From: Firmicutes bacterium M10-2
GTDB taxonomy: Bacteria > Bacillota_I > Bacilli_A > Erysipelotrichales > Erysipelotrichaceae
NCBI GenBank assembly: GCA_000403415.2
Contig: KE159692.1
Coordinates: 531,947-595,946, forward strand
Reading direction: 5' to 3'
Length of the DNA: 64,000 nucleotides
The notes under the pieces are model-generated. The model had not been told where the DNA came from. It saw nothing but the letters and a program-made list of their open reading frames with translations, and made no database searches. Positions 7,212 through 61,010 of the stretch are shown here, piece after piece (position 1 is the stretch's first letter; every line of letters begins with the position of its first letter). The translations under genes and the position numbers were made by a program.

Positions 7212-7325
7212 GCATTCATTGTAAATCATCTTTTCTTCTATTGCAAAACTCAAGAAATCATGTCACCTTTTTGCTGTCTGAATCGTAGTATAGGTGAAAG
7301 ATCTTTCAAAGAAAGTGAGGAACTT

Positions 7326-7807
7326 ATGCGCATACCTGTGGAATGTTTGATTGAATGTTACAAAGACCATTTGTTCGGGGCCGCATTTTCGGTGACGCAA
7401 AACGTAGCCGACGCTCAAGACGCGTCCAAAACACATTCATTCGATATCATCAGTCGTCTGTCGAATTCGAAAACGAGCAACATATTCGTTTATGGCTTTT
7501 TCGCACCGTTTACAATCAGTCAAAAGATATTCGAAAATCATTTTGGAAGCGAAACAAAGTCAGCCTGGATGAAGTGATCGATTTGTATTATCCGGAGCCG
7601 TCAAAAAAGCGGGATTTATTCGAGGCCGTGCTTCGGCTTCCGAAAAAGGAACGCTCGATCCTGCAACTGTATTATTACGAGGACTATTCAATCAAAGAAA
7701 TTGCATCCATCCTCGGATTAAAAGAGCCGACAGCGAAAAAGCGGTTATCTCGTGCCCGCATCTTACTCAAACAAAGATTATTGGAGGATTGGAATGAAGA
7801 CGAATAA
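7326..7807 (+). pseudogene. ECF-type RNA polymerase sigma factor with a frameshift
   Basis: Start ATG 7326 has GTGAGG upstream. The first frame encodes the region 2 opening (CYKDHLFGAAFSVTQNVADAQD); the rest (NTFIRYHQ, HIRLWLFRTVYNQSKD, then region 4 LPKKERSILQLYYYEDYSIKEIA and TAKKRLSRARILLKQRL) is in another frame ending at 7807. The two join if one base is added near 7425-7432 (GACGCGTCC), giving a product of about 160 residues, the usual ECF size. So it is either a true one-base deletion or a sequencing error; region 4 alone is intact. The start of the membrane protein downstream overlaps the stop by 14 bp, the usual sigma/anti-sigma arrangement. Confidence 0.8.
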
Positions 7808-8384
7808 ACAAAAATATAAAGAAACGTTCTCCTCACTGACGTGCATAGAACCTATCGTGATGGAGGAAAGAAAGATGCAAAAACAAAATAAATTTTCAAT
7901 GGCTTTTACGGTGTGCGCTTTAATACTTGTGCTTAGCGGAGGAACAATTTGCTACGCCAATGATATCGGCGGGATCAAAACGATTATCAATGGCTGGTTC
8001 CATGGAGAAAAGATTCAGGTAAATGCCGTCAAAAAAGATGGAATAGGTTATGACTTTTACAAAGATGGCGAAGAAGAGCCGTTCATGGGTGGAGGTGGCG
8101 TGACCTACGATGAATTCGGTAATGAAGTTCCTTTATCGGCAGAGGATGTCTTGGAAAACTCTTCCAAAGTGATCGAGAAGCAGGCGGACGGAAAAGTAGT
8201 TCTTTACGATCACGACCTCTCAATCGACATTACCGATTATTTAAAAGATGGAAAAGCGAAATTAATCGTAGTCAATCATGGCACAACAACCTATTGGAAT
8301 ATCGAAGTGGATGACTATTCGACATCCTTTTCAACCTATTTAGAAGAGCCTGACGATGTCGACGAATATGTTGCTGTTCAATGA
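7794..8384 (+). CDS. Single-pass membrane protein, probable sigma-factor partner
   Basis: 196 residues from ATG 7794, which has GGAGG 6 bases upstream and overlaps the end of the sigma gene. A cytoplasmic N-terminus of about 35 residues precedes one membrane helix (FSMAFTVCALILVLSGGTI) and an acidic extracellular domain with GGGGVTYDEFGNEV and SIDITDYLKDGKAKLIVV. The size, topology and coupling to an ECF sigma gene fit an anti-sigma or co-regulator, but no zinc-binding ZAS motif is visible and the family is not recognised with certainty. The same start could also be re-initiated after translation of sigma region 4. A terminator follows directly. Confidence 0.75.
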   Translation: MKTNKQKYKETFSSLTCIEPIVMEERKMQKQNKFSMAFTVCALILVLSGGTICYANDIGGIKTIINGWFHGEKIQVNAVKKDGIGYDFYKDGEEEPFMGGGGVTYDEFGNEVPLSAEDVLENSSKVIEKQADGKVVLYDHDLSIDITDYLKDGKAKLIVVNHGTTTYWNIEVDDYSTSFSTYLEEPDDVDEYVAVQ

Positions 8385-8412
8385 AAAACCGGAAATTTTC
8401 CGGTTTTTTAGG
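8384..8412 (+). terminator. Terminator of the sigma/membrane-protein operon
   Basis: AACCGGAAA followed by TTTCCGGTT and a T run starts at the stop codon of the membrane protein gene; a strong perfect stem. Confidence 0.85.
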
Positions 8413-8528
8413 ATTCCGGCAGTTTCCCCACAAAACAGTTTTCATCTTTCCGAATTTATTATACCCGCTTTCTTTAGGTTTGCCTCCGGATTGTCTTAAA
8501 AAGAAATAATTTTCATTTTATCGTCATA

Positions 8529-8557
8529 TTGACACTAGACCTCATTTTAGATATAAT
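8529..8557 (+). promoter_or_regulatory. Consensus sigma-A promoter of tRNA-Leu
   Basis: TTGACA (8529-8534), 17-bp spacer and TATAAT (8552-8557): a perfect match to the vegetative consensus, 13 bp upstream of the mature tRNA 5' end. Confidence 0.9.
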
Positions 8558-8570
8558 AATTATGCATTTT

Positions 8571-8655
8571 GCGGAGATGGCGAAATTGGTAGACGCGCTA
8601 GCTTCAGGCGCTAGTGAGGCAACTCATGTGGGTTCGAGTCCCGTTCTCCGCACCA
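8571..8655 (+). tRNA. tRNA-Leu (anticodon CAG)
   Basis: 85 bases with CCA encoded. Acceptor arms GCGGAGA/TCTCCGC pair fully; the anticodon stem CTAGC/GCTAG encloses TTCAGGC, giving anticodon CAG for CUG codons. A long variable arm and the GGTTCGAGTCC T-arm are present, as expected for a class II tRNA. It stands alone with its own promoter and terminator. Confidence 0.95.
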
Positions 8656-8666
8656 TAGTGAATTTA

Positions 8667-8692
8667 GCCCTTATATAAAGGGTTTTTTTTTA
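8667..8692 (+). terminator. Terminator of tRNA-Leu
   Basis: CCCTT-ATATA-AAGGG followed by nine T residues, 12 bases after the tRNA. The stretch from here to about 8837 holds nothing I can support. Confidence 0.75.
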
Positions 8693-8837
8693 CGTGTCGG
8701 ATAAAAGTCGGATATTTATAGCTTTTTTTCTTGAATAAGTGATATTCTATGTACAGAAAGGATGTACATTTTATGGCTGTTAAATGGCAATTTAACGGAA
8801 AAATCTATAAATAGATGGAAAGGCTGGCTTTGCAACA

Positions 8838-8860
8838 AAAAAAGACCCTTTCGGATCTTT
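8838..8860 (-). terminator. Terminator of the PurF-like gene
   Basis: Minus strand AGATCC-GAAA-GGGTCT followed by T7, overlapping the stop codon region of the gene. Confidence 0.7.
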
Positions 8861-10265
8861 ATTCTGTACCATCCCAGCAATAAGTACATAATTCGCATTT
8901 ATCCAAGCCAATCGATTCGATCATATCATCTAACCGGTGATATCTTAAAGAAGTGAAATTCAGGCGTTTCCTGATTTCTTCGCACATATTCGCATATTCC
9001 TTGCTGTCAGGATCAGCGTACTTCTGCAATGTTTCTTTTGAAACATTTTCTCCTTCCAGTTCTTCGATAACCCTTCGTGTAATTAATTCTCTTTCCGAGT
9101 TCGAACGTGAAAAGTTTAAATATTTGCATCCGAACATGATTGGAGGGCAAGCCGGACGGACATGCACTTCTTTTGCTCCGCTCTCATACAAAAACTGGGT
9201 CGTTTCCCCAAGTTGAGTTCCACGTACAATCGAATCGTCAATTAAAAGAAGCTTTTTGTCTTTGATCAGGTCGGCAACCGGAATGAGCTTCATCTTTGCA
9301 ATCATGTTTCTTTGCACTTGATTGGTCGGCATGAAAGAACGAGGCCAAGTCGGTGTATATTTGATAAACGGACGGCTGAACGGAATCCCCTTTACATTGG
9401 AGTAACCGATCGCATGCGCGATTCCCGAATCCGGCACACCGGCTACGCTATCTACTTCCACATCGTCGCGAGCAGCTAGAATCTTTCCGCAACGATTTCG
9501 CATAACTTCGACATTCACCCCTTCATAGGTCGATGTCGGATAACCATAATATACCCATAAGAAAGAACAAACTTTCTTTTGCTCATATGGCTTTTGAAGA
9601 ACTTGCACCTCATTCGGTGTAATCAGATCGATTTCTCCTGCACCGAGATCTTTATAATGAGTATATCCTAAATTCAGAAATGCACTGCTCTCAAATGTCA
9701 CACAGTAGCCGTTTTCTTTTGCTGCAACAATGACCGGTGTGCGACCTTCTTTATCCCGCATTGCATAAATTCCGTCTTTGTTCAACACCAAAATGCTCAT
9801 GCTTCCGTCCACAAGATCCTGTACATACTTTAAACCTTCTACGATCGAATTTTTTTGATTGATCAATGCTGCGATCAATTCGGTCGGATTGATTCCCCCA
9901 ATGCTCATCTCCTGAAAATGCGTCATCCCTTTTTCAAAACAATGAGCCTTTAATCCATCCAAATTGTTGATGCGTCCAACGGTCGAGATCGCAAAGCTCC
10001 CAAGATGAGAATGCAGCAGTAAAGGCTGAGATTCATAATCTGAAATACAACCAATTCCCAAGTTGCCTTCAAACGAATCGAGATCTTTATCGAATTTCGT
10101 CCGGAACGGTGAATTTTCAATATTGTGGATTGCCCGAGTAAATCCTTTATCCCCAAGTACTGCCATTCCCGCTCTTCTCGTTCCTAAATGCGAGTGATAA
10201 TCAATCCCGAAAAACAGATCCAATACGCAACTTTCTTTTGAAGCAACACCAAAAAAACCACTCAT
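8859..10265 (-). CDS. Amidophosphoribosyltransferase-like protein without the N-terminal nucleophile cysteine
   Basis: 468 residues from ATG 10265 (GGAGG 9 bases upstream; a TTG two codons earlier overlaps less well). It starts MSGFFGVASKESC, followed by YHSHLGTRRAG: a class II glutamine amidotransferase fold in which the Cys1 of PurF (CGVFGI) is Ser. The phosphoribosyltransferase half has the PRPP motif LLLIDDSIVRGTQLGE. Cysteines in VCSFLW, FGCKYLNF and the terminal CELCTYC resemble the Fe-S ligands of Bacillus PurF. PurF makes phosphoribosylamine from PRPP and glutamine; with Ser1 the glutaminase activity is uncertain, so ammonia use or another role is possible. No other pur gene is nearby; it has its own terminator. 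Confidence 0.8.
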   Translation of the reverse strand: MSGFFGVASKESCVLDLFFGIDYHSHLGTRRAGMAVLGDKGFTRAIHNIENSPFRTKFDKDLDSFEGNLGIGCISDYESQPLLLHSHLGSFAISTVGRINNLDGLKAHCFEKGMTHFQEMSIGGINPTELIAALINQKNSIVEGLKYVQDLVDGSMSILVLNKDGIYAMRDKEGRTPVIVAAKENGYCVTFESSAFLNLGYTHYKDLGAGEIDLITPNEVQVLQKPYEQKKVCSFLWVYYGYPTSTYEGVNVEVMRNRCGKILAARDDVEVDSVAGVPDSGIAHAIGYSNVKGIPFSRPFIKYTPTWPRSFMPTNQVQRNMIAKMKLIPVADLIKDKKLLLIDDSIVRGTQLGETTQFLYESGAKEVHVRPACPPIMFGCKYLNFSRSNSERELITRRVIEELEGENVSKETLQKYADPDSKEYANMCEEIRKRLNFTSLRYHRLDDMIESIGLDKCELCTYCWDGTE

Positions 10266-10302
10266 GCACAATTTCCTCCCTTTTCTTTTTCCATTCTAGC
10301 AC

Positions 10303-10332
10303 GAAAAGCAAGATCCGAAAATCTTGCTTTAT
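10303..10332 (-). terminator. Terminator of ileS
   Basis: Minus strand AGCAAGAT-TTTCGG-ATCTTGCT plus T run, immediately after the ileS stop at 10336. Confidence 0.85.
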
Positions 10333-10335
10333 TTA

Positions 10336-13065
10336 TTATTCAACTTCTAAAATCTGCGCGCAGCGATCGCATAGACCGTCTTTATGATCGCTTTCCGTGT
10401 AATTCCAGCAACGCGGGCAAACATGTCCTTTTGCTCTTTCAACCTCTACTTCGCATACTTCATATGCTTGTAAAGGACCATTCACGAATTCGACACGCGA
10501 CACGATCAGCCACTGAGCAGGATCCGAAATCAAACGATCGAATAAATCCTTTGTTTCTTCATTGACATGCAGTTTAAGAGAAGCCTCCAGCGACTTTTTG
10601 ATCAAGCCATCTGCACGGGCAATTTCAAGAGCTTTCAATACATCTTTGCGAACCGCAAGCAATTTGTTCATTTCTTCGACAAGTTCATCTCCATTCACAT
10701 CAAGATCAACTTTGACAAATTCACTCAAATGGATCGATTCTTTGTCAAAATGCATAAAATCATTGATTTCTTCTGCTGTATGACAAAGGATCGGAGCCCA
10801 TAAACGAATCAGTACATCCAGACATAAATAAAGAACCGTTTGTACTTGACGACGAGCAGGATCATCTTCGCGTAAAATGTATAAAATATCTTTTGTATAA
10901 TCCAAATAGTAAGCCGATAATTCATTCGTCATGAAATTTGTCAACATGCTTACAACATCCGCAAATCGATATTCATCGTAAGCTTTGATACATTCGTCAA
11001 CGATTTTATTAAGCTTCACTAACACATATTGATTCAATAAAGACAATTCATTCGTCGGAAGAAGATCCTCTTTCGTAAATGTATTGTTATCTAAGTTTGC
11101 CATTAAGAAACGGAATGTATTACGTACTTTTCGATAGTTTTCTGCCACTTGTTTCAAAATGTTTTGCCCCATGGAGCAATCCGCTTGATAATCGACACTT
11201 GTGGCCCACAAACGAAGGATATCTGCCCCGAATTTTTTCGTGATTTCACTTGGTGCCACCGAATTCCATTGTGATTTGGACATTTTCACGCCCTTTTCAT
11301 CCATCACAAAGCCATGCGAAAGCACTTGTTTATAAGGAGTCTGTCCATAAACGGCCGTCCCGACAATGAGCGAAGAGTTAAACCATCCTCGATACTGGTC
11401 GGAACCTTCAAAATAAAGATCTGCAGGATAGCCAAGACCACGCGCAATCATCGCTCCGGTATGCGAAGAACCGGAATCGAACCATACATCCATCGTGTCC
11501 GTTTCTTTTTTGAATTCCCCGTTTGGAGAATGCTCATTCGTATATCCTTCAGGAAGCAGATCTTTCGCATCCTTTTCAAACCAGATATTCGATCCGTACT
11601 GTGCAAACAATTCAGCAACATGATTGAATACTTGCTGATCCATGATCGGCGTATCGTCTTCACCGTAAAAAATCGGAATCGGAACTCCCCAAGCACGCTG
11701 GCGGGAAATACACCAATCCCCACGATCAGCAATCATATTATGCATACGGCCTTCTCCCCAAGCCGGAACCCAAGAGATCGAGTGAATCTGTTCCAACAAT
11801 ACGTCGCGGATCTTATCGATCGAAGCAAACCATTGTGTCGTGGCACGGAAAATGATCGGTTTTTTTGTACGCCAGTCATGAGGATAAGAGTGAGTAATGA
11901 ACGTTAAGTTCAGCAGCGCACCAAGATCATCTAACTTTTTGGTTACGACCTTGTTGGCATCTTCTACATAAAGCCCCTCAAGATCTTCTCCTGTGCTTTC
12001 CATCAATTTTCCTTGTTCATCGACATTGACATCCATTTCCAAACCATAACGCATGCCTGTATTGAAATCATCTACACCAAATGCCGGCGCTGTGTGGACA
12101 CACCCTGTTCCGGCATCTGCCGTAACGTAATCTGCCAATACGACCAAGCTTTCCTTTTCGGGATATAAAGGATGGACGGTTGTGATGTGCTCCAATTCTT
12201 TTCCTTTGAATGTCTTTACAACTTCGTATCGTTCAACATCAAATTTCGGCATCAGATCTTCGACCAATTCATTTAAAACGATCAGTTTTCCATGATCTGT
12301 ATCCACTAGCGCATATTCCATATTCGGATGAAGCGCAATCGCTTTGTTTCCCGGAATGGTCCATGGCGTTGTCGTCCAAATTACGAAATTGACATCATTA
12401 TCCAAAATTCCTTTTCCGTCTTTTACTTTGAATTTTACGAAAATTGTCGGAGATTTGATATCTTTGTATTCGACTTCCGCTTCAGCAAGAGCCGACTCGC
12501 TCGAAGGAGACCAATAAACCGGTTTTAATCCTTTATAGATCAATCCCTCCATAGCCATTTTTCCGAAGATCTTGATTTGTTCTGCTTCAAAATCCTTTGT
12601 CAGCGTGATGTATGGATGTTCGTAATCGCCGATGCTCCCTAAAGCTAAAAAACCGGCCTTTTGTTTTTCGACTTGTTCCATTGCATAGTCGTAGCATACT
12701 TTGCGGAACTCGGCAATTCCCATCTTCTTTCGATCGAATCCGAGTTTGGTCACTGCCGTTTCGATTGGCAAGCCGTGCGTATCCCAGCCGGGAATATACG
12801 GTACTTTATAACCTTCCATATATTTCGACTTATTAATGACATCCTTCAGGATTTTATTGAGCGCATGTCCCAAATGGATATCTCCATTGGCATACGGAGG
12901 TCCGTCATGCAGTACGAAAGGCTTGGCATTCTCATGACGCGCAAGCATCTTATCGTACAGCTGTTCCTCTTTCCAGCGCTGTTGATATTTCGGTTCCTTT
13001 TTCGTTAGATTTCCACGCATTTCAAAGCCTGTTTTCGGCATATGCAATGTGTCTTTGTAATCCAT
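10336..13065 (-). CDS. ileS: Isoleucyl-tRNA synthetase
   Basis: 909 residues from ATG 13065, set by TTAGGAGGG upstream; the longer open frame to 13164 runs through the T-box terminator and is not coding. Class I features in order: LHDGPPYANGDIHLGHALNK (HIGH variant, about residue 57), the CP1 editing domain (TTTPWTIPGN, AFGVDDFNTG), KMSKSQWN (KMSKS, about 590), an anticodon-binding helical domain and a C-terminal zinc finger CPRCWNY...CDRCAQ. It charges tRNA-Ile with isoleucine and edits valine. Expression should be governed by the upstream T-box. Confidence 0.97.
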   Translation of the reverse strand: MDYKDTLHMPKTGFEMRGNLTKKEPKYQQRWKEEQLYDKMLARHENAKPFVLHDGPPYANGDIHLGHALNKILKDVINKSKYMEGYKVPYIPGWDTHGLPIETAVTKLGFDRKKMGIAEFRKVCYDYAMEQVEKQKAGFLALGSIGDYEHPYITLTKDFEAEQIKIFGKMAMEGLIYKGLKPVYWSPSSESALAEAEVEYKDIKSPTIFVKFKVKDGKGILDNDVNFVIWTTTPWTIPGNKAIALHPNMEYALVDTDHGKLIVLNELVEDLMPKFDVERYEVVKTFKGKELEHITTVHPLYPEKESLVVLADYVTADAGTGCVHTAPAFGVDDFNTGMRYGLEMDVNVDEQGKLMESTGEDLEGLYVEDANKVVTKKLDDLGALLNLTFITHSYPHDWRTKKPIIFRATTQWFASIDKIRDVLLEQIHSISWVPAWGEGRMHNMIADRGDWCISRQRAWGVPIPIFYGEDDTPIMDQQVFNHVAELFAQYGSNIWFEKDAKDLLPEGYTNEHSPNGEFKKETDTMDVWFDSGSSHTGAMIARGLGYPADLYFEGSDQYRGWFNSSLIVGTAVYGQTPYKQVLSHGFVMDEKGVKMSKSQWNSVAPSEITKKFGADILRLWATSVDYQADCSMGQNILKQVAENYRKVRNTFRFLMANLDNNTFTKEDLLPTNELSLLNQYVLVKLNKIVDECIKAYDEYRFADVVSMLTNFMTNELSAYYLDYTKDILYILREDDPARRQVQTVLYLCLDVLIRLWAPILCHTAEEINDFMHFDKESIHLSEFVKVDLDVNGDELVEEMNKLLAVRKDVLKALEIARADGLIKKSLEASLKLHVNEETKDLFDRLISDPAQWLIVSRVEFVNGPLQAYEVCEVEVERAKGHVCPRCWNYTESDHKDGLCDRCAQILEVE

Positions 13066-14127: not shown

Positions 14128-14571
14128 TTACGCTTCATCGATTTCATCCGGATCGCCCAAAGAAATGGATCCTGAAACCCCGATTTGCTGTGGCGAGCAT
14201 AAAATAACATTTTGGCCGATTTTCTGAATCTTTCCATCAAGAGCAAATACGACACCTGTTAAAAAATCAATCGTTCTTTGTGCGTATTCACGGTCCAACT
14301 TGTGCAAATTCACAACAACCGCACGTCCTTCTTTCAAGCGCAATCCGACTTCTTCTGCTTCCCCAAAACTTCTTGGTTCAAACAACACCATTTTCGTATT
14401 CGGATTCAATGTTGATGAAGCCGCCTGACGAGTTTTCGGTCTTTCGTATTGGCTTTGAGGTTCTACTTCAACTTCTTTTTTGTGCACTGGTTGAGTTTCA
14501 TATACAGAGTTGTCATCATCACTTTCATCGATCGGAGCGACGAATTCTTTAACTTTATCGATAAATCCCAT
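14128..14571 (-). CDS. sepF: Cell division protein SepF
   Basis: 147 residues from ATG 14571 (AAGGAGG 9 bases upstream; the open frame upstream is the leader). Amphipathic N-terminus MGFIDKVKEFVAP for membrane binding, a variable linker (about 20-60) and the conserved core MVLFEPRSFGEAEEVGLRLK, AVVVNLHKLDREYAQRTIDFLTG, VFALDGKIQKIGQNVILCSP. SepF tethers FtsZ to the membrane and organises the Z-ring. Length is typical. A leader of about 130 bp with a TATAAT at about 14597-14602 lies upstream. Confidence 0.95.
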   Translation of the reverse strand: MGFIDKVKEFVAPIDESDDDNSVYETQPVHKKEVEVEPQSQYERPKTRQAASSTLNPNTKMVLFEPRSFGEAEEVGLRLKEGRAVVVNLHKLDREYAQRTIDFLTGVVFALDGKIQKIGQNVILCSPQQIGVSGSISLGDPDEIDEA

Positions 14572-14757
14572 GTGATAAACCTCCTTATCGTACATAATAA
14601 TTATAACACGTTCCTCGCCAGGCAAGGACCGATGATCCATTTCAACGAACCATTTTTATTGATTATGTAATCTACTTCACTGGAAATCGCAATCTTCGCA
14701 TTGCTTCTATGACTATACCACACAACTTAAAAATTAAAAACATTAAATCACAAAAAA

Positions 14758-14788
14758 TTAAAAAAAGCCTATTTTTTAGGCTTTTGTA
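14758..14788 (-). terminator. Terminator of hpf
   Basis: Minus strand AAAAGCCTA-AAAAA-TAGGCTTTTTTT immediately after the hpf stop. Confidence 0.85.
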
Positions 14789-14794
14789 TATGTA

Positions 14795-15328
14795 TTATTC
14801 GGTTTCGATGAGTCCATATCCTTTATCGTGACGACGATAAACAACCGCAATCTTATTTGTTTCATCATCCGTATAAATGAAGAAATCATGTCCGAGCAAT
14901 TCCATCTTCGTAATCGCTTCGTCCAAGGACATCAATTCAGGAACAAGCGACTTTGTACGAACGATCTCGTCCTCACCCACTTCTTCTTCATCGAACAGTT
15001 CAAGATCGATGAATGCTTCCGAAAGCGGATGACTGCTTTTTTTCGTAATCCGTGTCTTCTGACGTCGAATTTGATCTTCCAATTTGTCAATCGAACGATC
15101 AATCGCCCGATAAAGATCATCATCACTTACTTCCGATCGTAAAATTGCGAACCGTGTAGGAATGGTAATTTCAATTTTTTGTTTTGTAGGATAAGTTCGG
15201 ATCAAAACATTGGCTGTATCTTCGTCATCGATGATGAAGTACTTGTTAAGGACATTCAACTTCTTTTTGATCTTATCGGCAATCGCCTCCGTCACTGTAA
15301 TGTTTTTTCCAACAATATTGATTTTCAT
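14795..15328 (-). CDS. hpf: Ribosome hibernation promoting factor, long form
   Basis: 177 residues from ATG 15328 (AGGAGG 8 bases upstream). N-terminal S30AE domain (MKINIVGKNITVTEAIADKI, residues 1-95), linker, and the C-terminal dimerisation domain with IVRTKSLVPELMSLDEAITK and LGHDFFIYTDDETNKIAVVY. Long HPF joins two 70S ribosomes into inactive 100S dimers in stationary phase. Divergent from the DAHP synthase leader; single gene with its own terminator. Confidence 0.96.
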   Translation of the reverse strand: MKINIVGKNITVTEAIADKIKKKLNVLNKYFIIDDEDTANVLIRTYPTKQKIEITIPTRFAILRSEVSDDDLYRAIDRSIDKLEDQIRRQKTRITKKSSHPLSEAFIDLELFDEEEVGEDEIVRTKSLVPELMSLDEAITKMELLGHDFFIYTDDETNKIAVVYRRHDKGYGLIETE

Positions 15329-15506
15329 ATCCAATACCTCCTAGATCAAATCAGATCTTGTTCGATCTTTTATGGCTTTATTTTATCACAAAATGTACGT
15401 TACGTTAAAACTTAAAGCGCTTTCATTTAAAAAAGACAAAATTACATCCATTTTTGACCGGTTTCTTGACTTGCAAAAAAAATCGTGAATGAAAATGAAA
15501 AATATC

Positions 15507-55527: not shown

Positions 55528-55604
55528 CAGGACGTAGCTCAGCTTGGTAGAGCGCTTGGTTCGGGACCAAGAGACCGTGGGTTCGAATCCCATCGTCCTG
55601 ACCA
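55528..55604 (+). tRNA. tRNA-Pro (anticodon CGG)
   Basis: 77 bases with encoded CCA. CAGGACG/CGTCCTG acceptor stem pairs fully; anticodon stem CTTGG/CCAAG with loop TTCGGGA gives CGG. T-arm GGGTTCGAATCCC is standard. It marks the left border of the accessory block that follows. Confidence 0.95.
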
Positions 55605-55608
55605 CTTT

Positions 55609-55651
55609 AAGCTTAAAAAGATCGCTAACTAAAAGTTGGACGATCTTTTTT
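55609..55651 (+). terminator. Terminator of tRNA-Pro
   Basis: AAAAGATCG ... CGATCTTTTTTTT, 13 bases after the tRNA on the plus strand. The convergent kinase frame runs through it. Confidence 0.75.
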
Positions 55652-56105
55652 TTGAATAATAAATATTCAAGCACTTACCGACATCTCGCCACTGAAGCTT
55701 TTCTGGAATGTCTTGGAACCCTATAAACGCATTTTGTATGGGTTCAAAGTCATCGGATCGAACCGCCATTATGTTTTTGAGTTGCTTCTTCTGCCACTCC
55801 ATTGCCGTATTCCCCGACTTTTCATAAGTGTTGATCGCTTCCATATACAGGCCTCGGTCTAGAATTATTTTTTCATTAGATTTGATCAAGTTATCAGCTT
55901 CAATGAATCGTTTTATTTCTTCTGCAAAATAAAATTTTTGATTATATATTTCTTCTTTATAATTTTTTGATGGTTTTGGGTGTTTTACTCTCCTTCCAGA
56001 TTCTAAAATCATTAAATAGTTTTCTTCTTTAGATAAAAGTTCACATATAGTGGTTTTCCCTGCATTTGATGTTCCCTCTATGATTACTTTTTTTCGTCTA
56101 TTCAT
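55629..56105 (-). CDS. P-loop nucleoside/AAA-type kinase, C-terminus probably altered
   Basis: 158 residues. Walker A VIIEGTSNAGKTTICELL (residues 7-24), LMILESGRRVKHPKP, and KIILDRGLYMEAINTY with the DRx motif of deoxynucleoside-kinase-like enzymes. The last residues (NIYYSKKRSSNF) are encoded inside the tRNA-Pro terminator, so the natural C-terminus was probably lost at the island border. Overlaps the MFS gene by 8 bp and is last in the peptide-HAD-MFS-kinase run. Substrate unknown. Confidence 0.75.
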   Translation of the reverse strand: MNRRKKVIIEGTSNAGKTTICELLSKEENYLMILESGRRVKHPKPSKNYKEEIYNQKFYFAEEIKRFIEADNLIKSNEKIILDRGLYMEAINTYEKSGNTAMEWQKKQLKNIMAVRSDDFEPIQNAFIGFQDIPEKLQWRDVGKCLNIYYSKKRSSNF

Positions 56106-57300
56106 TCGACACCTCCTCCAATGAATCTTGACTCGTTAAATAAAACGCGCCGATTACTCCAAGGACGATCACAAACAGAAATACCATCAATTGATTATAA
56201 TTTCCTCCAAAAAAATGGATGACCGCACCCGCCAAGATTTTTCCGCATCCTGAAGTATTGAGAAACAAAGTGGTCGTGATTCCTACTTTGTTGACAGGAA
56301 CTATTTTTTGAAAAAAAGGAAGTCCCAATCCAATCAAGATCGAATAGTAAATTGCTTTTAAACAATAGCAAAAAATCATTCCTATTTTACTGCTGGTTCC
56401 CATATACATCAGGACAAAGATCCCGCAAACAATAAATCCGGCGTTTAATAAAGTTCGAATAGATATTTTACTAATCAGTTTAGCCCATAACAGCATGAAT
56501 GGAATTTCTAATAAAGAAGTATAACCGTTTAAAATTCCAATCCATTGGTTGGTAAAGCCATACCTTTCCGTTAAATACAAAGGGAAATAATTATCAGCAC
56601 ATGCATTGACTGTTTGAATACATATAAAAATCAAGAAGAACAAAATCAATCTTTTCATAGCCCCCGCCTCGTTAGAAGAAGCCTTCAAAGTTTTTTCCTC
56701 TACATTTTGAATTTCTGATTTTTGATTAAAATAGACAATGAAACTTAAGATAAAACTAATCAAAATCAAAAAACCGGCTGCATAAAAAATCGTTTGAAAT
56801 TTCGAAACCGACAAGATAAATCCCCCAACACTTGGTCCGATCACCCAGGCTGCGGAAATCAACGTGCGAAGTTTTACGATCATCGCCTCCACTTGTTCCG
56901 CGTTTTTTTCCTCTTTTTCAAATCTCTCATAACTTAAAGCAAAGATCTGGGGAACGATACACGAACTCAAGCTCATTAAAACGCAAGAAACAAGAAGTAT
57001 GGTCGCGAAGCTTTTACTCACCCCATATATAAAATAAGAAATGATTCCTGCCAGCATTCCCAGGTATAAAATAGACTTTCTTCCGATTTTTTGGTCGGAT
57101 AAATAGCCTAATATGGAAGAAATCACTAAATTGCAAATGGAGCTTGCCGACAAAAACAAGCCGATTTGTTTTTCTGACGCATTCAAAACCTGAAATAAAT
57201 AGAGGGATTGAAACGGAAGCGCAAGTGCCATAGCAATAGATACAAAAACGAGAATCGAGCCAATCATTAAAAATTGCGTTCCACTATTCTTCACACTCAT
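56098..57300 (-). CDS. MFS transporter, SetA-like efflux type
   Basis: 400 residues with 12 hydrophobic segments. MIGSILVFVSIAMALALPF, GLFLSASSICNLVISSILGY followed by LSDQKIGRKSILYLG (the MFS loop 2-3 motif), and WVIGPSVGGFI (motif C-like, seen in exporters). Resembles sugar or drug efflux permeases. Overlaps HAD by 17 bp and the kinase by 8 bp, so the three are translationally linked. Exported compound unknown; a link to the peptide pheromone circuit is inference. Confidence 0.88.
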   Translation of the reverse strand: MSVKNSGTQFLMIGSILVFVSIAMALALPFQSLYLFQVLNASEKQIGLFLSASSICNLVISSILGYLSDQKIGRKSILYLGMLAGIISYFIYGVSKSFATILLVSCVLMSLSSCIVPQIFALSYERFEKEEKNAEQVEAMIVKLRTLISAAWVIGPSVGGFILSVSKFQTIFYAAGFLILISFILSFIVYFNQKSEIQNVEEKTLKASSNEAGAMKRLILFFLIFICIQTVNACADNYFPLYLTERYGFTNQWIGILNGYTSLLEIPFMLLWAKLISKISIRTLLNAGFIVCGIFVLMYMGTSSKIGMIFCYCLKAIYYSILIGLGLPFFQKIVPVNKVGITTTLFLNTSGCGKILAGAVIHFFGGNYNQLMVFLFVIVLGVIGAFYLTSQDSLEEVSNE

Positions 57301-58015
57301 TTTTCAACACCTCTAACAACTCTTTTAGATTTTCAACGGTAAATATGTCCGATTCTTCCTTTTGATGAATCCAAACCGGTGTCATTCCTGCATTTCGAGC
57401 GCCGACAATATCCGCGTTAAAATCATCTCCAACAAACCAGATTTCTTTCGAATGAATGTTTTCACCCAGGATTTGATATATTTTCTGTTTCACTAATTTG
57501 AAAAGATAGGGGTGAGGTTTTCGAAATCCATAATTAGCGCTTGACATAACAAAATCGAAATCAATACTTGGAAAAAACTCCTTCAATCGCTCGGCTAACC
57601 TTTGAGAGCTAAAAGATAAATTGCTTACAACCGCCATTGGAATATTGTTTCCCTTTAACCACTTTAAAAGTGTTTCACTTCCTGATATTCTTTCGCCCGG
57701 AGCAGCCGCGTCCCAAAAAATAGTTTCCGATTCTTTCGGGTCGATTCCAATTTCTACGCCAAAATATTCATAAATATAATTTTGAAACTGATAATTATGA
57801 ATCTCCAAATACGAATTTGGAACTTTTCCATCTTGATACCTTCGATACTGCTTTGTCGCTTGATAGGCAATCTCCTGAATTTCTTCAGCGCTTGTATTGT
57901 TCGAGTTCACAAGCGGATTGGCAAGGATCGCTTTTGTTCCTTCCAAAGGATAAAAAAATTTTTCATGAATCAAAGTTTCTCCATAATCAAAAACAATAAA
58001 TTTTGGTTTTTTCAT
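57284..58015 (-). CDS. HAD-superfamily hydrolase
   Basis: 243 residues, AAAGGAG before ATG 58015. Motif I KFIVFDYGETLIHE (nucleophile Asp), motif II AVVSNLSFSS, Lys in NYGFRKPHPYLFKLV and motif IV IWFVGDDFNADIVGARNAG. A helical cap lies between motif I and II (subclass I). The second position after the nucleophile is Gly where most phosphatases have Asp, as in some relatives. Starts 28 bp after the peptide gene in the same strand. Substrate unknown. Confidence 0.9.
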   Translation of the reverse strand: MKKPKFIVFDYGETLIHEKFFYPLEGTKAILANPLVNSNNTSAEEIQEIAYQATKQYRRYQDGKVPNSYLEIHNYQFQNYIYEYFGVEIGIDPKESETIFWDAAAPGERISGSETLLKWLKGNNIPMAVVSNLSFSSQRLAERLKEFFPSIDFDFVMSSANYGFRKPHPYLFKLVKQKIYQILGENIHSKEIWFVGDDFNADIVGARNAGMTPVWIHQKEESDIFTVENLKELLEVLKNECEE

Positions 58016-58043
58016 CTCATTCTCCTTTCATTGAACTTCTAAT

Positions 58044-58190
58044 TTAAAGTTTTCCATTGCCTAGTCCAAATGGATTTTGTTCAGTACAACAATTATCCAA
58101 TTTTTTGTGAATGTCGCAATATTGAGGCGTATCCACCAAATTTAACAAAACCGCATTTAAAATAAAACTCATAATCAAAATTTTTTTCAT
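58044..58190 (-). CDS. 48-residue secreted peptide, candidate pheromone precursor
   Basis: Start ATG 58190 follows GGAAGGTGG; stop at 58044. The peptide opens MKKILIMSFILNAVLLNLVD (a short positively charged plus hydrophobic secretion signal), continues with a Cys-containing middle (YCDIHKKLDNCC) and ends NPFGLGNGKL. A tiny Sec-type precursor divergent from an HTH-TPR regulator is the hallmark of PlcR/PapR and TprA/PhrA pairs, where the C-terminal 5-10 residues are cut, exported and re-imported by oligopeptide permeases. It heads the HAD-MFS-kinase run. Pheromone status is inference. Confidence 0.7.
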   Translation of the reverse strand: MKKILIMSFILNAVLLNLVDTPQYCDIHKKLDNCCTEQNPFGLGNGKL

Positions 58191-58212
58191 TATTCCACCT
58201 TCCTTTCATTCG

Positions 58213-58233
58213 ATGGTAATATAATAAAACCAT
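58213..58233. promoter_or_regulatory. Inverted repeat before the peptide gene (possible operator)
   Basis: ATGGT and ACCAT separated by 11 AT-rich bases, 23 bp upstream of the peptide start. Spacing of one to two helical turns suits a dimeric regulator. Confidence 0.4.
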
Positions 58234-58316
58234 ATTCACCCCTTTACAAAAGGATAGTATATTATAATCAAATAATTGTCATTGTTTATTTTGAGCAAAA
58301 AACAGATAAATAATTC

Positions 58317-58329
58317 AACCTAATAGGTT
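58317..58329. promoter_or_regulatory. 13-bp palindrome before the regulator gene (possible operator)
   Basis: AACCTAATAGGTT, perfect 6-bp arms around one A, 30 bp upstream of the regulator ATG at 58359. A candidate autoregulatory site. Confidence 0.45.
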
Positions 58330-58358
58330 TAGTTTCAGTGCAATTTAAAAGAGAATAT

Positions 58359-59617
58359 ATGAAAAAGTTTAACAAAGTCTTATTTTATCGGCTCTATATA
58401 ATACATTTGCGTCAATATTATGAAATATCTCAGCGAGATTTAGCGAAAAGTCTCGAAATCAACAACAGTTCTTTGAGCAAAATCGAGGCTGGCAAACAAG
58501 AAATGGATGAAAAAACTTTTAAAAAAGGAATAAAATATTTTGAAACCATTGATTCTGAATTTCATTTTTCATTCGATCTCTCTTTGATAGACGATGCGGA
58601 TGAGTTTGTCTTCAAATGTATCCAAGCTTTGATCTTCGTTACTTATGAATCTTCTATGTATAAAATCAAGGATTTTCTAAATTGTTCAAAATACAGGGAT
58701 TCCTTTGCCTTCTTTCATTGTCTGGTTGTTCAAAATATACTTGACTGCATTCAGGAAAAAGATTGTATGGAATCCACTCAATATTTGATAGACTCAAAAT
58801 TTTTTATCGACCCTCGATATTATGCTATCTTATATGATTTAAATGGTGTGTCAGTCTATCCAAAAAACAACCAGATATTTCAAAAACAAATTCAATCTTT
58901 TCAAAAAGCTCTTGGTTTTTGTCATGGAGCAAATTGTGAAGGTCTGAGGGGACTGATTCTTTATCACCTCATTCTTATTCATAAGCAATATAAATGTTTA
59001 GGCGCTTTTCAATATTTGGAAGAATGCGAACACAGTTTCGAAAGAGCTGGTTATTATATGCTAAATTAAACAAAGGAAGCATCTATATAAAACTTGGTCT
59101 TTATCCTCTAGCCGAAGAAATTTATAAGAATCTTGAGCATAGTCAAACCCAAGTAGAAGAACGGGATGTTCTCCCCCTTGTATTTGCCAATTATTCCTGG
59201 TGTTCCCTCCTGCAAGGGAAATACAAAGAAGCGATAGAGAAAGCCCGAAAAGCGAAACGATTAGGCAGCCGCTTTCCCGACATTTATATCACCTTCGCGT
59301 ATGGCTACTACAAACTGGGTGATATACAATCGGCCGAACATGCGATTACTCATTTCCGACATTCTTTTTCATCCAAGCCACGTGTGAGTTTCATCAACTC
59401 GTTTTTTACCGTACTGGAACGTGTTATGGAGGACAAGATTGTGCCGGACTATTTGATCGAACACCTTTTCAAAAAACTGCCCGACTTTCAGGATGTGGAT
59501 CTTGAGATGGTGTTGTATCCCCTGTTATCAGACTACTATTGTTCCCTGGGTTCGTTTCAGGAAGCGTATCGCATCCAAAAACGCTGGAATGACTATTTGC
59601 AGTTTGCGAATCTTTAA
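58359..59617 (+). pseudogene. RRNPP-type (Rgg/PlcR/TprA-like) HTH-TPR regulator with a frameshift
   Basis: From ATG 58359 (AAAAGAGAA upstream; a GTG at 58338 is an alternative). Residues 10-65 form an XRE-like HTH (RQYYEISQRDLAKSLEINNS, SLSKIEAGKQEMDEKTFKKG), followed by helical TPR-like repeats. The first frame ends at 59069; the rest (KLNKGSIYIKLGLYPLAEEI, LLQGKYKEAIEKARKAKRLG, FAYGYYKLGDIQSAEHAI) continues in another frame to 59617. One base gained or two lost near 59050-59065 (TTATTATATGC) rejoins about 419 residues, a little longer than PlcR (285) or Rgg. So the gene is freshly broken or misread. Confidence 0.8.
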
Positions 59618-59855: not shown

Positions 59856-61010
59856 TTACGCTGGTCTATATTGAAATGGGTGGACCCGCTGGGATTTCAT
59901 ATTCCGTTTGTTACTGCGATCTGGTCGTATCGGGACCAGATCCTTTTTTATCCGTTCCTCGAGTTTTCCAGCGCTGATCTTCCTTTTCAGAAACAATCGA
60001 ACATTTGTGACGCCTGTCGTAAATGAAGGATCAAACGGGCATAGATTTCCTGATGGATGTATTTTCTTTTTCTCGAATGAAAATCGAGCATGCCTACGGT
60101 ATATTTCAAAGTCCGGAACCCCACTTCTTCGTTCCAGCGCTCTTCCATCGTAAACTCAGGGCCCAGGTTCGTGATCAGGCATTCATATTTTCCTTTTTCG
60201 ATTTCGATCCGGACTACACGGAGTTTCAATTTGTATTCTTGCGCTCCTCCTTTTGGCATGGATTGAAATTCAGTACTCCACGGCAGATAACGATATACAT
60301 CCCGGTTCTCCTTCACTTCGTTTGTTTGTTTTCGAGTCAGGATGATCTCTACATCTTTATCAAATGTCTCCTCTGAAAAATCAAAGGTGGATAAGATCCC
60401 GTTTGATTCGACATCTTTGACTCGGATGATGAATTTTTGGTTATTTTCAATACAATATGCGAATGTATCCTATTTCTCGAAGCCTCGATCCGCGCAGAGG
60501 ATGGATCTCTGTGGATAAAAATGATTCTTGACCATTTCCTTGAGCGCGTTGAGATGCAGCTGTGAATAAGGCTTGCCCGACTTCACGGTGCATAACGTTT
60601 CCTGATCAGAGGGATCAAAAGGGATATTGACATCCGATCCGTCCATCGCGATCACGTGATAACCACGAAACAAAGATGGCGAGGGAGTGAAAGACATAAG
60701 ATGGAGGATACGAAGGAAAGCTTTCGGATCCAGTTTTTCACGCTGCTGGCTAAAAGCGGAACGTGTCACTTCGGTCGTAGTCCCTTCAAAGAAAGTTGTA
60801 AGTTCGGTATTCAAAGAATGAGATCCCATTTGAATGATCAAAGGAATCAGTGTTTTTGGCGGAAGTTTCCGATTGCGGGAAAAATCCGAAAGCGGATTCG
60901 AACAATAACAGGAAATATTGTCGACAACAGATTGTACGGCGAAGTCGAATTGACGACGGACTTCAAGCAAAGAATCATGAGACTGTGAAATAAACGCCTC
61001 AAAAACACAA
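59856..61010 (-). pseudogene. IS4-type DDE transposase, decayed
   Basis: Reading frame from about 61010 (no ATG; FISQSHDSLLEVRRQF) through LPPKTLIPLIIQMGSHSLN, HVIAMDGSDVNIPFDPSDQE (first catalytic Asp) and SILCADRGFEK (second Asp). A TAG at 60470-60472 interrupts it, then it continues YCIENNQKFIIRVKDVESNG and YIHQEIYARLILH (Glu region) to a stop near 59987; a shifted frame supplies the end (DLVPIRPDRSNKRNMKSQRV). One nonsense codon plus one frameshift make it inactive. It lies between the regulator and the rRNA operon terminator. Confidence 0.82.

Follow-up and report, generated by a model that had tools for sequence, protein, structure and literature searches.

We analyzed a 64,000-nucleotide stretch of the genome of Firmicutes bacterium M10-2, hereafter the window (G000:C12:531947-595946; G000 is the bacterium's own genome, 2.41 Mb in 22 contigs). 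Here a small open reading frame (ORF) for a putative secreted peptide lies back to back with the gene for a regulator that combines a helix-turn-helix (HTH) domain with tetratricopeptide repeats (TPRs), and the two make up the candidate peptide-pheromone cassette discussed below. The locus comprises the following features:

55528-55604, + strand: tRNA-Pro(CGG), found by ARAGORN and Rfam, the border of the locus
55629-56105, - strand: small P-loop kinase-like protein, AAA_18/AAA_28-like, just under the gathering cut-off
56098-57300, - strand: MFS transporter (PF07690, E 6.7e-39), similar to the SET sugar-efflux group
57284-58015, - strand: HAD-family hydrolase (YjjG/YfnB-like; PF00702/PF13419), the first cargo gene
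58044-58190, - strand: propeptide ORF, 48 amino acids, ATG start, sequence MKKILIMSFILNAVLLNLVDTPQYCDIHKKLDNCCTEQNPFGLGNGKL
58191-58358, no strand: divergent intergenic region holding the candidate operator TTTGAGCAAAAAACAG and promoter-like hexamers
58338-59069, + strand: regulator fragment 1, GTG start with an alternative ATG at 58359, HTH_3 (Pfam)
58994-59617, + strand: regulator fragment 2, in another frame, with the C-terminal TPRs (TPR_2 above the Pfam cut-off)

The peptide and regulator genes are direct, divergent neighbors with 148 nucleotides (nt) between them. The window propeptide has a signal-like hydrophobic N terminus, a C-x2-H...D-x-C block and a tail with Gly, and the ribosome site AAGGAAGGTGG lies immediately 5' of its ORF. 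The peptide stop and the HAD start are 28 nt apart; the cargo ORFs, all on the minus strand, overlap by 17 nt (HAD and MFS) and 8 nt (MFS and P-loop). These elements (the peptide ORF, its ribosome site, the divergent HTH-TPR gene and the overlapping HAD, MFS and P-loop genes) had been named in a preliminary description of the stretch, and all were recovered at the positions it gave.

By itself the small ORF is no more than chance would be expected to supply, as 117 ORFs of at least 30 amino acids overlap this 11 kb of the window. It is significant because its homologues adjoin homologous regulators. A profile search with five peptides found eight places in G000, two in Erysipelotrichaceae bacterium OPF54 (G001, BQKD01000001.1), which belongs to the same genus, and four in G005, from another genus; a further peptide-regulator pair, its regulator fragmented, is present in G237. 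Nearly all of these peptides are divergent beside an HTH-TPR regulator and head an operon, the exceptions being a relic at C1:189117, which lacks both cysteines and a regulator, and a G005:C47 peptide at a contig end. The preliminary description had staked its proposal on such small ORFs occurring next to the regulator, and they do, both in the same genome and in relatives. A class-wide search for the family outside the order gave a single marginal match, in G526, which is antisense to a coding gene and was taken as chance. Profile matches in G262 (C7 and C68) were weak and in a different context, and were also set aside.

The family propeptides are 46-55 amino acids long, within the 10-100 amino acids of the RRNPP signature (PMC10075063). 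They have a basic N terminus and a hydrophobic core by a simple hydropathy rule and are hydrophilic after the signal. The alignment gives the motif PxCxxHHxxDxCW, in which C-x2-H-x3-D-x-C is invariant, followed near the C terminus by a PxGxxxG tail that ends in D/N/K and E/K. A conserved C terminus with a variable middle had been anticipated; the first part holds for the PxGxxxG tail, but the middle Cys-His-Asp-Cys-Trp block, which had gone unnoticed, is also among the most conserved parts. Identity by codon position across the family is 0.49/0.57/0.38, and 478 of the 987 identical residues use different codons. This bias supports the coding nature of the ORF, which the preliminary description had left to such a check.

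The association of peptide and regulator is repeated well beyond the window. The window regulator has about ten relatives in G000, several with back-to-back peptide ORFs in their flanks. We gathered regulator-like ORFs from 316 genomes of the order and inspected their flanks for secreted small ORFs (30-90 amino acids, a ribosome site, a basic start, a hydrophobic core and a hydrophilic tail, at most 350 nt upstream). A small ORF fitting this rule lay directly upstream of 27 of 55 long regulators vs 9 of 205 control genes of the same loci, and eight of those nine control positives were the same peptides, viewed from the cargo gene they lead. Fisher's test gives p = 3e-14 for this enrichment across loci that are related and thus phylogenetically non-independent. 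Regulator distances also track whole-peptide distances (Mantel r 0.55, p 0.003, n = 11); the correlation is 0.42 (p 0.0035) for the tail, i.e., the part after the Cys/Trp block, and about 0 for the signal region. Such co-variation would be the pattern expected of a receptor-ligand pair, although the number of pairs compared is small. With homologous pairs, the PxGxxxG tail, codon-position bias and co-variation, the earlier pairing of a propeptide, predicted to be secreted, with an RRNPP-type HTH-TPR regulator holds up.

Several of these loci carry traces of duplication. In L022 (G000:C21; 7144-8680 and about 9940-10719), the 5' part of the regulator, the intergenic region and the peptide are duplicated at 98.6-99.3% identity over two 290-nt blocks, and the second copy has a regulator fragment only and other downstream genes; this is a cassette duplication onto new cargo. 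L027 (G000:C16) holds neighboring cassettes (7263-8510 and 14172-15419) whose regulators share 98.5% identity over 813 nt of their 3' part and downstream flank and 92% in the upstream region, with differences in between, which looks like gene conversion or recent duplication. In OPF54, identical regulator C-terminal fragments at G001:C1:2285926, 2356932 and 2427938 are spaced exactly 71,006 nt apart, so that either OPF54 holds three copies of a 71-kb unit or the assembly is in error there. Two intact regulators of the same clade, L023:6423-7727 and L025:5811-7184, have no recognizable peptide, and that of L025 is divergent to an MFS gene; both are possible eavesdropper receptors.

The intergenic regions also share sequence. 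Across the 2.4 Mb of G000 there are exactly three occurrences of the palindrome TATTTTCGAAAATA, always in cassette intergenic regions (C1:610k, C16:171k and C16:178k), and the matching region of OPF54 carries it with one mismatch. Since the C16 pair arose by recent duplication, the number of independent occurrences is lower. The window instead has the 16-mer TTTGAGCAAAAAACAG (58290-58305), found once in G000 and once in OPF54, at the same place beside the orthologue; a copy with one mismatch precedes a truncated paralogue (C1:51060). The latter locus, L024:7061-7541 (G000:C1:51 kb), has a 146-amino-acid regulator with a TTTGAGCAAAAAAC operator and no peptide, and is another decayed cassette. 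Promoter-like hexamers for the window peptide lie on the minus strand at 58288-58261 or 58282-58254, with TTTGAGCAAAAAACAG directly upstream. These shared palindromes and 16-mers and the adjoining promoter-like hexamers make it very probable that the regulator has a site in the intergenic region.

To place the regulator by fold, we modeled the OPF54 protein (L104) from five sequences (pLDDT 90.3). In the model, an HTH at the N terminus precedes nine TPR-like repeats, formed by the pairing of eighteen helices. The top 50 Foldseek matches in the PDB include phage Rap with pheromone (TM 0.5-0.63), RapJ and NprR with NprX (NprR 4gpk, 5dbk). As modeled, the regulator fits the nine-TPR clan of NprR, Rap and QssR, with an N-terminal HTH as NprR has, rather than the five-TPR PlcR/TprA/Rgg clan (PMC12700828). 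A sequence-profile search of the PDB returned HTH and generic TPR matches only, with no RRNPP receptor, NprR included, and no Rgg model was among the Pfam or NCBIfam matches.

Gene anatomy, homology, repeated pairing, shared intergenic sites, co-variation and predicted fold are the observations we build on. We consider it quite probable that the window peptide, together with the HTH-TPR gene divergent to it, represents one copy of an RRNPP-type pheromone cassette that has been duplicated in Erysipelotrichaceae and has interchangeable cargo. In intact copies, a 46-52-amino-acid propeptide with a hydrophobic export signal would be secreted, processed to leave a short C-terminal stretch around PxGxxxG[D/N/K][E/K] and re-imported via an Opp-like oligopeptide permease; G000 encodes four oligopeptide-binding proteins (PF00496). 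The regulator encoded divergently would take up the re-imported peptide in its TPR groove, act at the shared intergenic operator and switch the peptide-led operon, giving positive feedback and cargo expression. Export, trimming, import, binding and the sign of regulation would follow the precedents of PlcR, NprR, TprA and Rgg (PMC10075063, PMC9765709, PMC5436883, PMC13361665).

In the copies examined, the peptide leads a run of genes in the same direction, but which genes follow changes among copies, so cargo would be exchangeable: a radical-SAM maturase for a ribosomally synthesized and post-translationally modified peptide (RiPP), a precursor and an exporter in some, HAD-MFS-kinase in the window. 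In L031 of OPF54 (8154-11317), the peptide is followed by a radical-SAM/SPASM maturase, a separate precursor-like ORF (MKELVIGRNIQEKIQAKLNYMNGGAGGHNCHCGS, ending NGGAGGHNCHCGS) and an ABC exporter whose nearest match is GggC; the maturase is most similar in NCBIfam to the PapB, SCIFF and CcpM families, under their cut-offs. L028:7235-10350 likewise has a radical-SAM/SPASM maturase, a precursor-like ORF (MKEIIITEKVVKDLKEKEELLHGGAIGANCSCEM) and an ABC exporter, and L027 has maturase and exporter cargo. The 34-amino-acid precursor-like ORFs of L031 and L028 are of a RiPP type that matches none of the NCBIfam precursor models.

The window cargo is of a different kind. Its HAD protein is similar to TIGR02254, below the equivalog cut-off, and about 27% identical to YjjG; the MFS protein scores 8.8e-46 to TIGR00899, also below the equivalog cut-off, and is 26-27% identical to SetA/SetB. 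Neither 60 relatives (E<=1e-20) nor 395 class genomes (E<=1e-30) yielded a related MFS, and searches of relatives, class, plasmids and phages gave remote SetA/SetB relatives only. A search of genome contigs with the HAD protein gave no relatives. The kinase matched nothing in relatives, class, plasmids or phages, and nothing closer than generic P-loop kinases. As a guess only, a sugar- or nucleotide-phosphate product might be dephosphorylated and exported. The preliminary description took HAD-MFS-kinase as a part of the system; given the unrelated cargos elsewhere and the lack of related MFS genes in the relatives and class genomes searched, the set is a local cargo, one of several unrelated sets.

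Does the window copy itself still sense its peptide? The preliminary description inferred a self-sensing system, but here the receptor gene is broken into ORFs of 243 and 207 amino acids in different frames. Compared with the intact 428-amino-acid OPF54 regulator, the first fragment is 49% and the C-terminal part 51% identical, and the DNA alignment has a 13-nt gap in the window near 59057, where the frame breaks. This gap is either a true mutation or an assembly error. The RRNPP signature of PMC10075063 asks for receptors of 250-500 amino acids; intact family members (415-457) lie inside this range and the window copy does not. Since the receptor gene is split and its first fragment carries the HTH and about four of the nine TPR-like helix pairs, the window copy probably no longer senses, and peptide control would be lost. 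The window operon is most likely uninduced, unregulated or answered by a paralogue. It is doubtful, though it deserves some weight, that the copy still works, either through a constitutive HTH fragment or through a paralogous receptor that answers NPFGLGNGKL and drives HAD-MFS-kinase in trans. The operator at 58290 is undamaged and matches the OPF54 one exactly, G000 has other truncated HTH fragments, one with the operator (C1:51148, 146 amino acids), and receptors without their own peptides exist (L023, L025). However, no close intact receptor of the same clade was found in G000, the next best full-length one being 37% identical, and the peptide motif is partly eroded.

The split receptor is one of several points that weigh against a pheromone cassette, as does the window peptide's lack of the conserved W and second H. 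The secretion call applies a hydrophobicity rule only, the Mantel test covers 11 related pairs with short alignments, and several paralogous regulators have no visible peptide (L023, L025, L028). Fold alone is not diagnostic, as the eukaryotic TPR protein LGN ranks as high as Rap in Foldseek. We know of no counterpart to the conserved Cys/His block in described RRNPP propeptides, and because of this the trimmed-tail step is an assumption. The block could also mean more. The family may be an undescribed RRNPP branch of propeptides with conserved Cys/His blocks of a metal or disulfide type. Its signal would then be gated by metal, redox or a dedicated maturation step instead of acting as a plain linear tail, and a single genome would have six or more parallel private channels, each owning an interchangeable operon; we hold this wider proposal to be rather unlikely.

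A different possibility is that the peptide is the product, i.e., a RiPP or bacteriocin precursor with a modified Cys/His core, and the HTH-TPR protein merely a local regulator. The conserved Cys-x2-HH-x2-D-x-Cys-Trp core invites this reading, and the peptide genes of L027 and L031, which lead operons that include an ABC exporter, extend about 26 nt into the gene for the radical-SAM maturase. However, the core is kept where no maturase is nearby (the window, C21, C1:610k and OPF54 copy a), the N terminus is a Sec-like signal instead of a RiPP leader, and the residues after the signal co-vary with the regulator. Because the RiPP copies hold a separate precursor between maturase and exporter, as in L031 (MKELVIGRNIQEKIQAKLNYMNGGAGGHNCHCGS) and L028, the divergent peptide would not be needed as maturase substrate. 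We rejected radical-SAM modification of the divergent peptide as a general explanation on these separate precursors and the absence of a window maturase, and give the peptide-as-product reading little credence.

There is a slim chance that the peptides are secreted metal-binding or redox-sensitive molecules, and that the regulator senses their metal or thiol state, not cell density. This would suit the invariant C, H, D and C, as well as the unrelated Cys/His-rich secreted small ORFs that immediately precede HTH-TPR regulators in other genera of Erysipelotrichales (H-x-H...C-G; E-C-E-C; CxCxxC), none of which had a Pfam match:

Genus g67 (L117, L118, L119, L121, L122, L123, L150): ACEALSN...CTINDDGECEC
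G026, G284, G161: CTHVHTEECGENG... and HVHDENCG...
G087: KPCVYEEDGTLSKDSPIPC
L125, L128, L132, L139; L126, L138: further loci with unrelated Cys/His-rich small ORFs

However, metal transport genes do not recur in the cargos seen, and the tail co-varies with the regulator besides the Cys/His block. Finally, the thought that the small ORF is an untranslated chance ORF beside an ordinary regulator draws on how frequent short ORFs with start codons are in the window and is virtually eliminated by conservation, given the homologues beside homologous regulators, the third-position divergence and the differing codons of shared residues.

The borders of the window locus show some further features. The last bases of the kinase-like ORF (55629-55660) belong to the palindromic terminator downstream of tRNA-Pro(CGG); the ORF is possibly truncated there, as though its original 3' end had been swapped out at a junction. 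Split transposase-like ORFs without a Pfam match lie at 59987-60970, between the regulator and an rRNA operon. At tRNA-Pro, a search for repeats that would mark a duplicated attachment site gave low-identity repeats only. As for a mobile-element link of the regulator, viral contigs gave one weak HTH match and plasmids none.

Erysipelotrichaceae are common gut bacteria, and peptide signaling in them is essentially undescribed in the literature we searched. The family is not named in the main text of three RRNPP surveys, nor, in PMC10075063, in the main text or among the families listed as carrying linked biosynthetic clusters, and our search of open-access papers found none holding both RRNPP and Erysipelotrichaceae. 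Within one genome there seem to be six or more cassettes that pair a peptide with a regulator; their tails differ, their operators are shared within clades, and some are connected to new radical-SAM RiPP clusters. Should the cassettes operate as proposed, synthetic tail peptides would turn on silent clusters, and a well-studied receptor family would gain a new feature in need of explanation, the Cys/His block.

RRNPP systems and RRNPP-linked RiPP clusters are already known. Of the five parts of the RRNPP_detector signature (PMC10075063), the family shows four (small propeptide, TPRs, receptor size and adjacency), and the fifth, secretion (through a Sec signal or PptAB), is called by a crude rule. 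Like NprR/NprX and Rap/Phr of Bacillus, the regulators have an HTH and nine TPR-like helix pairs in about 415-457 amino acids, but identity in structural alignments is 12-16%, and the pheromone gene here is divergent, heads the target operon and encodes a conserved Cys/His block. To our knowledge, PhrA has no conserved Cys/His block, in contrast to the family here, and we found no sequence family link to TprA/PhrA. TprA/PhrA and TprA2/PhrA2 of Streptococcus pneumoniae (PMC5436883) do resemble it in joining a regulator to a small propeptide with a Gly/Asp-containing C-terminal peptide and a linked peptide-antibiotic cluster, although TprA is a five-TPR receptor (clan A, PMC12700828) and our model has nine pairs. 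The Rgg/SHP pairs of streptococci are also linked to radical-SAM RiPP (RaS-RiPP) operons, are divergent in groups I and II and occur as many paralogous pairs per genome (PMC13361665). However, SHPs are short, hydrophobic and exported by PptAB, and their receptors belong to a different family, whereas the propeptides here are longer and the pheromone ORF opens the cargo operon. Against this background, two things stand out as unusual: the Cys/His block that the propeptides conserve, and how many parallel cassettes a single genome holds.

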